This document shows, in pieces, positions 8,714-13,989 of a stretch of DNA of 24,492 bases (position 1 is the stretch's first letter; the number at the start of each line of letters is the position of its first letter). Made by a program: the position numbers and the translations under genes. The notes under the pieces are model-generated. The model made no database searches and had not been told where the DNA came from. It saw only the letters and a list, made by a program, of their open reading frames with translations. This stretch comes from Streptomyces sp. NRRL S-31. GTDB taxonomy: Bacteria > Actinomycetota > Actinomycetes > Streptomycetales > Streptomycetaceae. The stretch covers positions 1 through 24,492 of the forward strand of contig NZ_JOCB01000116.1 in NCBI RefSeq assembly GCF_000718775.1, read 5' to 3'.

Positions 8714-10504
8714 ATGCCCACGACACGTGCAACCACCGACCGCTCCGCCCCGCGCGCCCTGCTCCGGCTGTGGCCGTACGTCCGCCCCGTGCGCGCACGG
8801 CTGATCACCGCCGCGGTCGTCGCGGTCGTCGCCTCCTGTACCGGGCTGGTGATCCCGCTCGTCCTCAAGTGGATGGTCGACGGGCCGGTCGCCGCCCATG
8901 ACCCGGCCGGCGTGTGGCTGGGCGCCCTGTACCTGCTCCTGCTCGGTGTCGCCGAGGCGGTCCTGTTCGGCGTCCGGCGCTGGCTCGTGGCCCGCCCGCT
9001 GTCGTACGTGGAGGCGGGGATGCGGGCGGACCTCTACCGCCGTCTGCAACGCCTGCCCGTGGCCTTCCACGACCGCTGGGCCTCCGGCCAGCTGCTCTCG
9101 CGCGCCACCACCGACCTGATGCTGCTGCGGATGTTCCTCGCCTTCCCGCTGACCTTCCTGCTCGTCAACGGCGTCACCATCCTCGTCGGCCTGGTGATCA
9201 TGCTGATGCAGGACTGGGTGCTGGGGCTGGTCGTCCTCGGCCCCGCCGTCCCCGTGATGTGGACCTGCGCGGTCTTCGAACGGCGGTACGCCGAGGTGTC
9301 GCGGCGCGCCCAGGACCAGGTCGGGGACCTCGCCACGGTGGTCGAGGAGAGCGTCCTCGGCATCCGCGTCGTCAAGGGCTTCGGCCGGCACCGCAGCCAG
9401 GCGCGCGCCTTCCGGGAGCTGGCGGTCCGGCTCCGGGACACGGAACTGCGCAAGGCGCGGCTGCTCGCCTCGATCTGGAGCGTCATCGTGACGCTGCCCG
9501 AGGTGGCGATCGGGGCGGCGCTGGTCCTGGGCGCGGTGCGGGTGGCCGACGGCGGCCTCTCGGCGGGCACGCTGGTCGCCTTCCTGAGCACGGCCCTCGC
9601 ACTGCGCTGGCCGGTGGACTCCATCGGGTTCCTGCTGGCGATGAGCCAGGAGGCGGCCACGGCCACCGAACGGTACTTCGAGGTGATGGACGAGGAACCG
9701 GAGGACGGCACGGCCGCGGCCGGCCCCGCCGCCGGCGCACCGGTGAAGGACCCGGCCGCGCGAGGGCTCCGCTTCGAGGACGTCCGGTTCCGCTACCCCG
9801 ACGCGCCCCCCGGCTCCCCGCCCCTCCTCGCCCACGTCGACCTGCACATCCGGCCCGGCGAGTCCATGGCCCTCGTCGGCGCCACCGGCAGCGGCAAGAC
9901 GACGCTCACCGCCCTCGTCCCCCGGCTGTACGAGGTCACCTCCGGCCGGATCACCCTGGACGGCGTCGACATCACGGCCATGACCCGCGAGGAACTGCGC
10001 GCCAGGGTCGCCGTCGCCTTCGAGGAACCCACCCTGTTCTCGGCGAGCGTCGGCGAGAACGTGCTCATGGGCGCCCCGGACGGCGCCGGTGAGCCCGAGC
10101 TGGAACGGGCCCTCGCCATCGCCCAGGCCGACTTCGCGCACGCGCTCCCGCAGGGCACCGGCACCCGCGTCGGCGAGCAGGGCCTCAGCCTCTCCGGCGG
10201 CCAGCGGCAGCGCCTGGCGCTGGCCCGCGCGGTGGTCGGCCGCCCCGAGTTCCTGGTGCTGGACGACCCGCTGTCCGCGCTCGACGTGCACACGGAGGCC
10301 GCCGTGGAGGCCGCGCTGCGCCACGTCCTCACCGACACCACCGCGCTGATCGTCGCCCACCGCCCGTCCACGGTGCTGCTCGCCGACCGGGTCGCCCTGC
10401 TCTCCGGCGGCCGGATCGCCGCCGTCGGCACCCACCAGCAACTGCTGCGGGAGAACGCCGAGTACGCCCATCTGATGTCCGGGGAACAGGAGGACTCCCG
10501 TTGA
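8714..10504 (+). CDS. ABC exporter half-transporter, degenerate-site subunit
   Basis: A 596-aa type IV ABC exporter half: six transmembrane helices (about 25-310) fused to a nucleotide-binding domain (about 353-590). Walker A is GATGSGKTT (389-397), the signature is canonical LSGGQ (493-497) and the H-loop is H549. Two ATP-hydrolysis residues deviate: the Q-loop glutamine is replaced by E437 (AFEEPTLF), and the Walker B catalytic glutamate by D518 (LVLDDPLSALD). These are marks of the non-hydrolysing subunit in heterodimeric exporters. Substrate is unknown; drug, lipid or peptide are all possible. ATG 8714 is chosen because homologous sequence begins at MPTTRATTDRS; the frame is open to 8465 without family-like sequence. 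The stop codon overlaps the start of the next gene by 4 nt. Confidence 0.92.
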   Translation: MPTTRATTDRSAPRALLRLWPYVRPVRARLITAAVVAVVASCTGLVIPLVLKWMVDGPVAAHDPAGVWLGALYLLLLGVAEAVLFGVRRWLVARPLSYVEAGMRADLYRRLQRLPVAFHDRWASGQLLSRATTDLMLLRMFLAFPLTFLLVNGVTILVGLVIMLMQDWVLGLVVLGPAVPVMWTCAVFERRYAEVSRRAQDQVGDLATVVEESVLGIRVVKGFGRHRSQARAFRELAVRLRDTELRKARLLASIWSVIVTLPEVAIGAALVLGAVRVADGGLSAGTLVAFLSTALALRWPVDSIGFLLAMSQEAATATERYFEVMDEEPEDGTAAAGPAAGAPVKDPAARGLRFEDVRFRYPDAPPGSPPLLAHVDLHIRPGESMALVGATGSGKTTLTALVPRLYEVTSGRITLDGVDITAMTREELRARVAVAFEEPTLFSASVGENVLMGAPDGAGEPELERALAIAQADFAHALPQGTGTRVGEQGLSLSGGQRQRLALARAVVGRPEFLVLDDPLSALDVHTEAAVEAALRHVLTDTTALIVAHRPSTVLLADRVALLSGGRIAAVGTHQQLLRENAEYAHLMSGEQEDSR

Positions 10505-12357
10505 CCGCCACGACCGCCTCCACCCCCGCCGTCACCGACGACGATCCGTCCCGCCCGGCGGACGCGGGCGACCCCTTCGACCGGGACGTCCTGCCCACCC
10601 CGCCCGGCGCCACCGCGGCCCTGCTGCGCTCGCTGCTCGCGCCCCTGCGGGCCCGGGTCGCGCTCACCACGCTCCTGCTGCTGCTCCAGCAGGCGGCGGT
10701 GCAGGCGGGCCCACTGCTGGTGGCGTACGCCATCGACACCGCCGTACCGGCGTTCCGCGACGACCGGCACGGCCCGCTGGTCGCGGTCGCCGTCGGCTAC
10801 CTGCTGTGCGCGCTCGCCTCCGGCATCCTCCAGTTCGCGTTCGTGGAGACCTCCGCCCGGGTCAGCCAGGACGGGCTGCTGGACCTGAGGGGGCGGATCT
10901 TCCGGCACGCGCAGGCGCTGAGCGTCGACTTCCACGAGCGGTACACCTCCGGCCGGCTGATCTCCCGGTCCACCACGGACGTCGAGTCGCTGCGCGAACT
11001 CCTGGAGGAGGGGCTCCAGGAGCTGGTGACCGTGGTGCTGTCCTTCGTCTCCATCGCGGCGCTGCTGCTCTGGCTGGACCTCGGCCTCGGCGCGGTCGCG
11101 GTGGCCTCCTTCGTGCCGCTGTACGCGCTGGTCCGGCTCTACCGGCGGCGCGCGGGGCGGGTGTTCGGGGAGCGCTCCACGGCGATCGCGGCCGTGATCG
11201 TGAAGTTCGTGGAGACCATGAACGGCATCCGTCCGGTGCGCGCCTTCCGCCGGGAGGCCGCGAACGACGCCGAGTTCGCCGGGCTGAACGCGCGGCACGC
11301 CCGCACGAACGGGGACACGCTGCTGGAGATGGCCCGCTACGTGGTCGGCTCCCGGCTGGTGGCCAACACGGCGGTCGCCGGGATCGTGCTCTGGGGCGCC
11401 CACCGGGTGGCGTCCGGCTCACTGGAACTGGGCGTGCTGGCGGCGGCCGTGCTGTACCTGCGCCGGCTCTACGACCCGATCGACCGGCTGGGCATGTTCC
11501 TCAACTCCTACCAGTCGGCCGCCGCCTCACTGGAGAAGATCGCCGGACTGCTGGCCCAGACGCCCTCCGTGCCGGAGCCCGCCCGGCCGCGCGAACTCCC
11601 GCCGCTGACGACGGAGTTCCCCGGCCGCGAGGTGGTCTTCGACGGGGTCCGGTTCGGCTACCGCACCGGCGGCGAGGTGCTGCCCCGCTTCGACCTCACC
11701 CTGCCCGCCGGGCAGACGGTCGCGGTCGTCGGCTCCACCGGCGCCGGCAAGTCCACCCTGGCCAAGCTGCTCGCCCGCTTCTACGACCCCTCCGACGGGC
11801 GGGTGCTGCTGGACGGCGTGGACCTGCGCGAGCTGGCGATGCCGGAACTGCGGCGCGGGGTGGTCATGGTGACGCAGGAGGCGTTCCTGTTCTCCGGCAC
11901 GGTCGCCGACAACATCGCCATCGGCCGGCCCGACGCCACCCGCGAGGAGATCGAGGCGGCCGCGAAGGCGATCGGCGCCGACGAGTTCATCAGTGCGCTG
12001 CCCGACGGCTACGACACCGACGTCCGCAAGCGCGGCGGGCGCATCTCCGCCGGGCAGCGCCAGCTGGTCGCCTTCGCCCGGGCACTGCTCGCCGACCCGG
12101 CCGTGCTGATCCTGGACGAGGCGACCAGCTCGCTGGACATCCCGGGGGAGCGGGCCGTCCAGCGCGCGATGTCGACGGTGCTGCGCGGCCGGACGGCCGT
12201 CGTGATCGCGCACCGGCTGTCCACCGTGGAGATCGCGGATCGGGTCCTGGTGATGGAGCACGGCCGGATCGTCGAGGACGGCCGCCCGGCCGAACTCATC
12301 GCGGGCACCGGCCGCTTCGCGAACCTGCACCGGGCGTGGCGGGACAGCCTGGCGTAG
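10501..12357 (+). CDS. ABC exporter half-transporter, catalytic-site subunit
   Basis: A 618-aa partner of the preceding gene. An N-terminal cytoplasmic tail of about 40 residues precedes six transmembrane helices (about 50-335) and a nucleotide-binding domain (about 375-615). Walker A is GSTGAGKST (411-419), the Q-loop is intact (Q459, VTQEAFLFSG), Walker B keeps the catalytic E540 (LILDEATSSLD), and the H-loop is H571. The signature is altered to ISAGQ (515-519). With the neighbour's changes, this predicts one consensus ATP site (this Walker A/B plus the partner LSGGQ) and one degenerate site. TTG 10501 overlaps the upstream TGA (TTGA), with AGGAGG shortly upstream, so the two are translationally coupled. 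It converges on the sulfatase 8 bp away. Confidence 0.93.
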   Translation: MTATTASTPAVTDDDPSRPADAGDPFDRDVLPTPPGATAALLRSLLAPLRARVALTTLLLLLQQAAVQAGPLLVAYAIDTAVPAFRDDRHGPLVAVAVGYLLCALASGILQFAFVETSARVSQDGLLDLRGRIFRHAQALSVDFHERYTSGRLISRSTTDVESLRELLEEGLQELVTVVLSFVSIAALLLWLDLGLGAVAVASFVPLYALVRLYRRRAGRVFGERSTAIAAVIVKFVETMNGIRPVRAFRREAANDAEFAGLNARHARTNGDTLLEMARYVVGSRLVANTAVAGIVLWGAHRVASGSLELGVLAAAVLYLRRLYDPIDRLGMFLNSYQSAAASLEKIAGLLAQTPSVPEPARPRELPPLTTEFPGREVVFDGVRFGYRTGGEVLPRFDLTLPAGQTVAVVGSTGAGKSTLAKLLARFYDPSDGRVLLDGVDLRELAMPELRRGVVMVTQEAFLFSGTVADNIAIGRPDATREEIEAAAKAIGADEFISALPDGYDTDVRKRGGRISAGQRQLVAFARALLADPAVLILDEATSSLDIPGERAVQRAMSTVLRGRTAVVIAHRLSTVEIADRVLVMEHGRIVEDGRPAELIAGTGRFANLHRAWRDSLA

Positions 12358-12365
12358 CCGGCCCG

Positions 12366-13772
12366 CTAGCCGGGGTACGGCAGCAGACCGCTCGCGATCC
12401 TCTCCCACGCCCCCTTCAGCTCGGCCAGCAACGCGGGCCGGTCCCGCCCCAGATCGGCCTGTTCGCGCAGGTCGGACGCGAGGTGGTAGAGGTGGTCGGT
12501 GCCGGCGGCGTCCTGGTAGTACTTCCAGTCGCCGCGGCGCAACGCCCGGTTGGCCCGCACCCGCCAGAACAGGTCGCGCTCGGGGAGTTCCTCGCCGCGC
12601 AGCAGGTAGCCGGCGAGGCTGGTGCCGTCCAGCGGGTGGGCGGGGTCGGGACGGGCACCGCCCAGCTCCAGCAGGGTCGCGGTCCAGTCGGGGGAGAAGT
12701 TCGGCTCGTGGCTGACCTGGTGGCCGTCGATCCGGGCCGGCCAGCGCACGATGGCCGGCACCCGGATGCCGCCCTCCTTCAGGACGAATTTCTCGCCGCT
12801 CAGCGGCCACTGGTACGACCAGCGCTCCCCGCCGTTGTCGCTGGCGAACAGCACCAGGGTGTTCTCCTCCTGCCCGGAGCGGCGCAGCGCGGCCAGCACC
12901 TCGCCGACCGCCGCGTCCAGGCTCTGCACCATCTCGGTGTACTTGGCGACCGAGCCGCCGTCGCGGTGGTTGAGGGCCTCGGTGACCTGGCCCGGATTCT
13001 TCGCGGCCCGGATCCGCGCGGCGATCTCCGCGCCGGTCTCCTCGTCGCCCTCGGCGAGCCAGGGCCAGTGCGGGGTGGTGAAGTTGAGGTTGAGCAGCCA
13101 GGGCCGGGTGTGCTTCCGGCCGACGTACTCGACGGCCCGTTCGGTCAGGACGGTCGTGTAGTAGCGCAGGTCCCGGTACTCGGCGTCGCCCTCGTACAGG
13201 TCGTGTTCGCCGAGCTGGCCGAGCTTGGAGAAGTACTCCAGGACACCGCCGAAGTTGCCGAAGAACTCGTCCCAGCCGGACTTGGTCGGGCTGTGGTCGG
13301 GCAGCCAGCCGCAGTGCCACTTGCCGATGAGCGCCGTGTCGTAGCCGGCCTTCTTCAGCAGGGAGGCGAGGGTGGGGTGGTCCGGGTCCAGGCCCTGGGA
13401 CCTGTCGGCCACGGGCTCGGCGAGGCCGCCCTCGGTGCGGCCCGGGTAGCGGCCGGTGTAGAGGCTGAAGCGGGTCGGCGAGCAGGTCGCCGAGCCGGAG
13501 TAGGCGTCGGTGAAGCGCACGCCCTGGCGGGCCAGCCGGTCCAGGTTCGGGGTCTTGATGTGCGGGGCGCCGTAGGAGGAGAGGTCGGCCCAGCCGAGGT
13601 CGTCGCCCAGGATGACCAGGAAGTTGGGGCGCGTCCCGGGGGCGGCGGCGGTACGGGCCCGGAAGGGGCGTTCGGCGGGGGCGGCCTGCGCGGGCGTGGC
13701 GGCGCCGGCGACGGTGGTGACCGCGCCGCCGCCGAGCAGACCGCCGAAGGCACGGCGGGATATGTCGGGCAT
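12366..13772 (-). CDS. Tat-exported type I sulfatase (formylglycine-dependent)
   Basis: A 468-aa arylsulfatase-type enzyme that hydrolyses sulfate esters, probably outside the membrane. The N-terminus has a Tat motif (ISRRAFGGLL) and a signal ending near PAQAAPA (about 28-33). Sulfatase marks are metal-binding GDDLG (D57, D58), the formylglycine site CSPTR with C97 and R101 followed by TGRYP, KWHCG (K151, H153), SDNGG (D312, N313) and LKEGG (K332). C97 would need a formylglycine-generating enzyme encoded elsewhere. ATG 13772 is chosen because GAGGA (13783-13779) is 6 nt upstream and the Tat motif follows directly; an upstream extension to 13811 would run into the hairpin. The leader contains a short cysteine-containing ORF and hairpin, so expression is probably tied to cysteine or sulfur supply. 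Substrate is unknown. Confidence 0.93.
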   Translation of the reverse strand: MPDISRRAFGGLLGGGAVTTVAGAATPAQAAPAERPFRARTAAAPGTRPNFLVILGDDLGWADLSSYGAPHIKTPNLDRLARQGVRFTDAYSGSATCSPTRFSLYTGRYPGRTEGGLAEPVADRSQGLDPDHPTLASLLKKAGYDTALIGKWHCGWLPDHSPTKSGWDEFFGNFGGVLEYFSKLGQLGEHDLYEGDAEYRDLRYYTTVLTERAVEYVGRKHTRPWLLNLNFTTPHWPWLAEGDEETGAEIAARIRAAKNPGQVTEALNHRDGGSVAKYTEMVQSLDAAVGEVLAALRRSGQEENTLVLFASDNGGERWSYQWPLSGEKFVLKEGGIRVPAIVRWPARIDGHQVSHEPNFSPDWTATLLELGGARPDPAHPLDGTSLAGYLLRGEELPERDLFWRVRANRALRRGDWKYYQDAAGTDHLYHLASDLREQADLGRDRPALLAELKGAWERIASGLLPYPG

Positions 13773-13791
13773 GCGGAATCCTCGGAACGGC

Positions 13792-13812
13792 CGTGCCCCG
13801 ACGCGGGGCACG
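13792..13812 (-). promoter_or_regulatory. Leader hairpin beside the sulfatase ribosome-binding site
   Basis: CGTGCCCCG (13792-13800) pairs perfectly with CGGGGCACG (13804-13812) over a 3-nt loop. On the mRNA it ends 8 nt before GAGGA and 19 nt before the start codon. It may be the anti-terminator, terminator or translation-gating element of the attenuator. Confidence 0.6.
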
Positions 13813-13814
13813 AC

Positions 13815-13850
13815 GAGGTGAAGGAGGGAGGGAAGAGGTGGAGGAGGGTG
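13815..13850 (-). promoter_or_regulatory. G-free, C-rich leader tract between leader peptide and sulfatase
   Basis: For 36 nt the minus strand has no G and is mostly C and T. It starts 4 nt past the leader-peptide stop. It has the composition of a Rho-loading (rut) region. It also contains TCCTC (13845-13841), exactly complementary to the sulfatase GAGGA, so it could instead mask that site. Function is inferred from composition and position only. Confidence 0.5.
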
Positions 13851-13854
13851 CGGC

Positions 13855-13950
13855 TCAGCGACAGAGGGCGCTGGACTGCCGGCACAGATCCACGTGCCGC
13901 CGCCCCACGAGCGCGAGGGGCGCGCATGCGTGTTCGATGGTCGGCTTCAT
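13855..13950 (-). CDS. Cysteine-containing leader peptide upstream of the sulfatase
   Basis: A 31-codon ORF (ATG 13950, stop TGA 13857-13855) ends 82 nt before the sulfatase start. Its C-terminus reads RRHVDLCRQSSALCR, the pattern I recall from short 'putative leader peptides' placed before sulfur-assimilation genes in Streptomyces. Cysteines fall at residues 9, 23 and 30 (TGC, TGC, TGT); the last is the penultimate codon. Known family behaviour: cysteine-rich leader peptides in mycobacteria act as cysteine-responsive attenuators. Inference here: ribosome stalling at Cys codons when cysteine is scarce raises sulfatase expression. There is no good Shine-Dalgarno (GGGA only 2 nt away), so a leaderless start is likely. 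It is too short for most gene callers. Confidence 0.8.
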   Translation of the reverse strand: MKPTIEHACAPLALVGRRHVDLCRQSSALCR

Positions 13951-13959
13951 GATCCCAGG

Positions 13960-13989
13960 ACGGTGCCAGGCGTCCGTACCGGCCGTCAA
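13960..13989 (-). promoter_or_regulatory. Candidate promoter of leader peptide and sulfatase
   Basis: The minus strand has TTGACG (13989-13984), then 18 nt, then CACCGT (13965-13960). The -35 is near-perfect for the housekeeping sigma factor; the -10 matches the A and T of TANNNT but starts with C. Only 9 nt separate it from ATG 13950, so transcription would begin at or next to the leader-peptide start. Confidence 0.45.

Follow-up and report, generated by a model that had tools for sequence, protein, structure and literature searches.

The tnaC leader peptide of E. coli senses free tryptophan through a ribosome that stalls near the leader stop codon, past which lies C-rich RNA. In M. smegmatis, polycysteine leaders related to the leader described here reportedly act by translational attenuation, according to work by Canestrari in 2020. 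Leaders of cys operons in Actinobacteria were predicted as early as 2005; they were described as short ORFs that have Cys codons close to their end and lack a terminator, and Rho was proposed for them from polyY motifs, a proposal called rather weak, with motifs that were not conserved (PMC1262725). The cysteine passage of that article names Mycobacterium, P. acnes and B. longum, and neither Streptomyces nor sulfatases. Cysteine leaders were later seen by ribosome profiling in M. smegmatis and proposed as attenuators (PMC4633059, 2015), and their testing in 2020 by Canestrari is cited in PMC13236596, PMC9031893 and PMC9094748.

Here, we analyzed a leader ORF ahead of a sulfatase gene in a 24,492-nt stretch of DNA from Streptomyces sp. 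NRRL S-31 (contig NZ_JOCB01000116.1), hereafter the window. The features of the locus, in the direction of transcription, are as follows.

13984..13989, minus strand: -35-like box TTGACG; TTGA lies 36-39 nt ahead of the leader ATG in relatives
13960..13965, minus strand: -10-like box CACCGT, 9 nt ahead of the ATG, identified by eye; CANNNT in many relatives
13855..13950, minus strand: leader ORF of 31 codons, MKPTIEHACAPLALVGRRHVDLCRQSSALCR, probably leaderless; matches NF042934 and is conserved in relatives
13882..13884, minus strand: codon of the internal Cys23, UGC
13861..13863, minus strand: codon of Cys30, UGU, the proposed sensing codon
13815..13850, minus strand: G-free C/U-rich tract of 36 nt, a candidate Rho loading region from its C-G skew statistics
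13793..13811, minus strand: hairpin GTGCCCCG-CGT-CGGGGCAC upstream of the Shine-Dalgarno (SD) sequence, role uncertain
13779..13783, minus strand: SD-like GAGGA of the sulfatase, from the sequence and accessibility prediction
12366..13772, minus strand: type I sulfatase of 468 aa with Cys97 in CSPTR and a Tat-like N-terminus (SRRAF); PF00884, E 4.7e-60

The leader ORF runs from the ATG at 13950 to the TGA that ends at 13855, its peptide has the C-terminus RRHVDLCRQSSALCR, and 82 nt separate its stop from the sulfatase ATG at 13772. An earlier note on this DNA had described exactly such an ORF, with a penultimate Cys codon at this distance from a sulfatase and a G-free tract after its stop; both observations are confirmed by the sequence, and no other G-free run on either strand of the window is as long, the next longest being 23 nt. 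Cys occupies codons 9, 23 and 30, so that no run of consecutive Cys codons is present, and only Cys30 is encoded by UGU, the codon of Cys23 being UGC. A scan of the window at Rfam gathering thresholds gave no match.

The downstream protein is the single match over the PF00884 cut-off in this genome, and its CSPTR motif is unchanged in all nine aligned orthologues. Since the genome also holds two matches over the cut-off to the FGE domain (PF03781), the CSPTR sulfatase could be matured, and the domain, the motif and the presence of FGE together place the protein among type I (FGly) sulfatases. The top-scoring solved chains are an entry named "Sulfatase", carrageenan sulfatases and an N-acetylgalactosamine-6-sulfatase. 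With SRRAF read by eye as a Tat motif, the enzyme is probably secreted. Tail to tail with its stop at 12366, and 8 nt from it, a plus-strand ORF of 618 aa (window 10501-12366 region) ends at 12357.

The leader peptide matches the NCBIfam model NF042934 (cis_reg_atten, "putative leader peptide") over residues 12-30, with 36.6 bits against a cut-off of 27 (E 2.4e-9). Its scores against NF042936 (Ms4527A; 21.2 bits) and NF042933 (Ms5788A; 15.2 bits) are below the cut-off of 45, and no Pfam family matched the peptide up to E 1. The placement is that of an NF042934-type leader, with a same-strand gene that fits sulfur metabolism, the sulfatase, downstream at the distance given above. A Streptomyces plasmid leader with the same motif and UGU codon, located ahead of an ABC transporter, is annotated as 'putative leader peptide'. 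Nine leaders score over the NF042934 cut-off in this genome, and the domains encoded by the genes picked behind them are CDO, sulfatase, PALP, luciferase-like monooxygenase, nitrite/sulfite reductase, GST, FMN reductase, rhodanese and flavin reductase. Among the matches listed, all 17 genus genomes have an NF042934 match; of 79 genomes covering the class, among them 5 from the window's own genus, 57 have one over the cut-off.

For family-wide counts, we assembled 119 leaders, comprising 28 + 80 loci of genus genomes and 11 of the window's own genome, 2 of these below the cut-off; nine over-cut-off rows were left out, two of which were sulfatase loci already included. We picked downstream ORFs for all but 2 of the 119 leaders, and these 117 ORFs fall into 28 clusters, the sulfatases forming one (5/117); the 28 clusters do not amount to 28 independent gene types, because clusters 3, 9 and 17 represent one leader type for which the picker chose different genes. 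Pfam assignments of 27 downstream proteins include nitrite/sulfite reductase, rhodaneses, a PALP enzyme, cysteine dioxygenase, permeases, luciferase-like monooxygenases and flavin reductases, together with a GST-like protein, NMT1-like and family 5 binding proteins, an SDF symporter and a molybdopterin oxidoreductase. By name, many of these genes fit sulfur metabolism; the 27 also include an acyl-CoA dehydrogenase, a PAP2 protein, a DUF1684 protein and a Trans_reg_C domain, and two proteins had no family. Leaders at L200, L201, L232 and L257 precede an SDF symporter, a DUF1684 protein, a PAP2 protein and a molybdopterin oxidoreductase, which are candidate members of the sulfur network.

Ahead of orthologous sulfatases, the leader is present at 45 of 55 loci of the window's genus, its own included (one orthologue locus each from 55 of 150 genomes searched; some are partial matches, e.g. 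L056 and L057, and a 61-residue fragment in G122 was left out). A second set consisted of the best 80 loci among the matches listed, with 8 duplicates, 30 further named Streptomyces loci and 42 more distant relatives. The leader occurs in 22 of the 30, where the sulfatases are at least 68% identical and where one of the 8 leader-negatives, L079, has an unreadable upstream stretch of N; it was found in 0 of the 42, which include Nocardioides, Actinomadura, Micromonospora, Burkholderiales and Planctomycetes. The leader-sulfatase link is thus widespread in Streptomyces, and the leader, conserved in 67 distinct sulfatase loci, is a real member of a sulfur-linked leader family, as the earlier note had supposed. 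In S. clavuligerus ATCC 27064, the pair is located on plasmid pCLA1 (NZ_CP027859.1), with the leader running from 1627433 down to 1627341 and the sulfatase directly downstream. The leader is also retained at L017, L056 and L057 ahead of sulfatase genes that match partially or end early.

The leaders take two forms. In clade A, whose sulfatases are mostly 79-100% identical to that of the window, the peptide reads RRHVDLCRQSSA(L/I/V)CR; in clade B, with sulfatases mostly 70-77% identical, it reads RRHVDL(V/G)RV(A/S)SA(I/L/V)CR. Over the 19-codon core in 66 distinct of 75 loci (13 A, 53 B), pN/pS is 0.157 in clade A and 0.205 in clade B, and it rises to between 1.98 and 4.42 in shifted frames, from which we conclude that the core is selected as a peptide. 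Conservation of the frame and of the Cys codons had been proposed as a check on the leader: the frame and the last Cys are indeed kept, but Cys23 is found mainly in the close clade, and most other sulfatase leaders have Val or Gly at its position.

Leader control appears to be dispensable, because a census of clade A gives 13 loci with the leader against 12 readable close orthologues with none and one with a remnant, besides one unreadable locus. The remnant, at L015, is a 9-codon frame, MRPSPALCR, that retains UGU. The sisters L016 and L083 (support 98/95) retain the TTGAC promoter and have lost the leader ORF, and L010 and L076, sisters with support 100/99, differ in that only L010 has the leader. 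On the assumption of an ancestral leader, favored by its occurrence in clades A and B alike, these two pairs together with L015 mean that it was probably lost at least three times. The tree of 38 sulfatases, in which 15 of 35 inner branches are open, the bootstrap is not settled and L017, L052 and L040 form long branches, was used only for these few well-supported pairs.

One codon is nearly constant across the family. Cys located 11 codons past the His/Ala of the core is encoded by UGU in 109 of the 111 genus leaders with Cys there (117 of the 119 leaders could be placed; L159 and L170, left out, both also read UGU). UGU likewise encodes the last conserved Cys in 65/67 distinct sulfatase leaders, a set that overlaps the genus set through the sulfatase cluster of the latter, and in 26/26 class leaders from 15 other families, which are the best-scoring loci of a longer list and among which L273-L275 are near-identical. 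Elsewhere in these leaders, Cys is mostly encoded by UGC, with UGU in 26/121 (genus), 14/65 (sulfatase) and 11/59 (class). Fisher p-values for this difference are 9e-38, 5e-21 and 2e-13, respectively, and are a guide only, since the sequences are related rather than independent and the values overstate the evidence. As background, UGU makes up 14% of Cys codons in flanking open frames (208/1448), 7.7% in called ORFs (48/621) and 1.6% in the sulfatases (3/189).

A motif at the RNA level was considered as the reason for UGU and is not favored: the neighboring codons vary (ATC, CTC, GTG and GCG before; CGC, CCG and TGA after), and this variation on either side favors a codon-level cause. Set against this, the base that follows UGU/UGC is a pyrimidine (C or U) in 105/111 genus, 67/67 sulfatase and 25/26 class leaders, even though the residue encoded next is not constant (R, P, Q, L, H, C, stop and others). 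The core residues ahead of the Cys are kept with varied codons: D in 117/117, R(+5) in 117/117, R(-2) in 116/117 and L(-5) in 113/117. Invariant amino acids thus lie within ~16 residues of the candidate stall codon, as in arrest peptides, and a single codon preceded by a conserved nascent chain looks like such a peptide. Because one fixed UGU is conserved, a run of Cys codons is not needed. In six leaders of the GST cluster (L064, L218, L221, L229, L235 and L248), the last Cys is replaced by Ser or Gly; five of the six read RVCSA, with Cys at +7, four codons earlier.

The region upstream of the leader is similarly constant. Of 74 loci whose leader ATG could be scored, 73 have TTGA 36-39 nt 5' of it (65 of 66 once duplicates are removed), compared with ~0.4% by chance; for the exception, L029, an internal Met served as the start, and measured from its first Met the distance is 38. 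A generic sigma-70 scan found no promoter at the window leader. From the spacing of TTGA and the CANNNT box, transcription would begin at the leader ATG or right beside it, which suggests that the leader transcript is leaderless. At L046 (2899-3051), the leader is missing, and the sulfatase frame starts at an ATG 38 nt past TTGAC, and no other ATG of the frame precedes the Tat-like RR; a deletion joining the leader start to the enzyme would give this arrangement.

Past the leader stop, the RNA is rich in C and poor in G, as in the Rho-type arrangement of tnaC. The mean C-G skew of the 60 nt past the stop is 0.49 in 13 clade A leaders, 0.34 in 54 clade B leaders and 0.30 in the 113 family leaders whose gap is 60 nt or longer, with no negative value. 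Control 60-mers from 5' intergenic regions at the same loci (81 stretches upstream of other genes) have a mean skew of 0.03, with 45% of 233 negative, and the skew 3' of ordinary genes is 0.04 (n = 63) and 0.05 (n = 22). The skew is weaker in a mostly non-Streptomyces set (30 loci, 26 of them outside Streptomyces), with a mean of 0.18 and 3/30 negative, all controls being from Streptomyces-set loci. Over the 70 nt ahead of the sulfatase start, it is at least 0.25 in 10 of 12 leader-bearing clade A loci, the exceptions being two loci with longer gaps (L014, -0.08; L119, 0.08); it ranges from -0.18 to 0.15 in 10 loci with neither leader nor old promoter, and is 0.21 at L016, 0.15 at L083 and 0.31 at the remnant-bearing L015.

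The core R-x-H-V-D-L-x-R-x(5)-C under peptide-level selection, the UGU at the last Cys, the promoter-like box and the C-rich stretch right past the stop together lead us to regard the leader as probably a cis-acting cysteine-responsive attenuator of the predicted exported sulfatase. Beyond the conservation of codon and peptide, we infer each step of the following mechanism. When Cys-tRNA is plentiful, the ribosome would pass the UGU and be released at the stop, and Rho would then act on the bare C-rich RNA and stop transcription ahead of the sulfatase gene or in its early part. Under cysteine shortage, the ribosome would stay at the UGU, perhaps with help from the nascent peptide, itself conserved, inside the exit tunnel; Rho would be kept off, as in tnaC, and the sulfatase would be made and would free sulfate from sulfate esters outside the cell. 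The Rho step taken by itself falls somewhat short of probable, and its weak point is the geometry of the ribosome: with UGU in the A site, the ribosome would cover only the first few nucleotides of the tract, so that masking must be partial or must operate via transcription-translation coupling. The excess of C over G could equally be a means of keeping the spacer unstructured.

An alternative end point for the same sensor is translational attenuation, in which a ribosome halted at Cys codons opens an RNA fold that masks the SD of the sulfatase; such control is reported for the related M. smegmatis leaders (work cited in PMC13236596 and PMC9031893). The earlier note had drawn attention to a 9-bp hairpin beside the ribosome-binding site, and this hairpin exists, with 8 pairs, or 9 if the flanking C-G is counted. 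At the threshold used, however, a strong hairpin near the SD occurs in only 5 of 13 clade A loci (L003, L004, L005, L010 and L119), with smaller stems seen by eye in some others, and the C-rich tract is the more general feature. We folded 12 of the 13 clade A leaders (L081 was left out) with and without a ribosome; the stall state labeled C22 sat one codon ahead of the real Cys23. The SD is mostly paired in these predictions, as a switch would require, and at L009 its accessibility is 0.28-0.48 with the ribosome stalled or the RNA naked, compared with 0.07 with the ribosome at the stop. L009 is, however, the only one of the 12 folded loci that changed clearly in the way a switch predicts. At the window locus, predicted SD pairing is independent of the ribosome position, with a value of 0.21 in all four states, and mean accessibility is 0.19 both in the 12 leader-bearing orthologues and in 13 others, a weak comparison, as several of the latter have no good SD; among these 13 are L015 with its remnant and L016 and L083 with their retained promoter. 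As there is no general SD difference, we did not adopt the hairpin as a switch; we consider SD unmasking an unlikely account of the leader and cysteine-responsive attenuation by Rho-type termination the more likely one.

Classical attenuation by alternative antiterminator and intrinsic-terminator hairpins is considerably less probable still. In its favor is L014, which is unlike the other clade A loci in that its 220-nt gap holds G+C-rich stems followed by CTGTTTCG. Terminator-like sites occur in 5 of the 116 gaps of the family and in 7 of the 67 of the sulfatase set, with no excess over shuffled sequences (means of 6.1 and 8.1), and the scan found none within the window stretch. That the peptide is instead a small functional protein encoded in an operon with the sulfatase would agree with the purifying selection on it, but roughly ten diverged copies per genome ahead of different genes, variable N-termini and a UGU kept at one codon, which peptide function does not require, make this highly improbable. 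A chance ORF, to which the 12 of 26 readable close orthologues lacking the leader might point, is contradicted by the family score, conservation, codon pattern and promoter spacing and can practically be dismissed. Taken together, our results partly support the interpretation of the leader as a sulfur-responsive attenuator.

Cysteine-responsive attenuation at this locus would bring extracellular sulfate-ester hydrolysis into the set of genes behind Streptomyces cysteine leader peptides, and sulfur scavenging could then be run by ribosomes rather than by a DNA-binding regulator. Among the matches listed from the open-access literature (titles and abstract starts), we found neither a link between a leader peptide and a Streptomyces sulfatase nor the UGU rule or a family-wide C-rich tract, which does not prove their absence from that literature. 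What is new here is that the last conserved Cys is nearly always UGU, which points to one precise sensing codon; together with the invariant core, the rule makes of a vaguely named family a sensor that can be tested at one predicted codon. We speculate that the whole actinomycete family may work by nascent-chain-assisted arrest, in which R-x-[HA]-V-D-L-x-R would prime the ribosome to halt at one rare UGU 11 codons past the His/Ala, so that one hungry codon would sense cysteine, with C-rich RNA in Streptomyces handing the decision to Rho and the family controlling a sulfur network that includes the predicted exported sulfatase; we offer this as a possibility that is more doubtful than not.

Cysteine leader peptides of actinobacteria are a kind already known, of which the window leader is a further case. 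It shares with tnaC the proposed stall near the stop, the C-rich RNA beyond it and the conserved residues of the nascent chain; the signal differs, being free tryptophan for tnaC and presumably low Cys-tRNA here. Like the leaderless polycysteine sORFs of mycobacteria, it is probably leaderless and has Cys near its stop ahead of a sulfur gene, whereas it lacks their run of Cys codons, and predicted folding gives it no structure for an RBS switch, L009 being different in this respect. L262, a polycysteine leader from another family, carries R-x-x-V-D-L-C-R and UGU at the same place as the window leader. With the cys-operon leaders predicted in 2005 (PMC1262725), it has in common the Cys codons near the stop, the lack of a terminator and the Rho idea, which the C-rich tract revives; it differs in belonging to Streptomyces and to a sulfatase, neither of which is named in the cysteine passage of that article. 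With NF042934, finally, it shares the 19-residue core, and where the name of that model gives neither a mechanism nor a target, the window leader has as its target a sulfatase with a Tat-like start.
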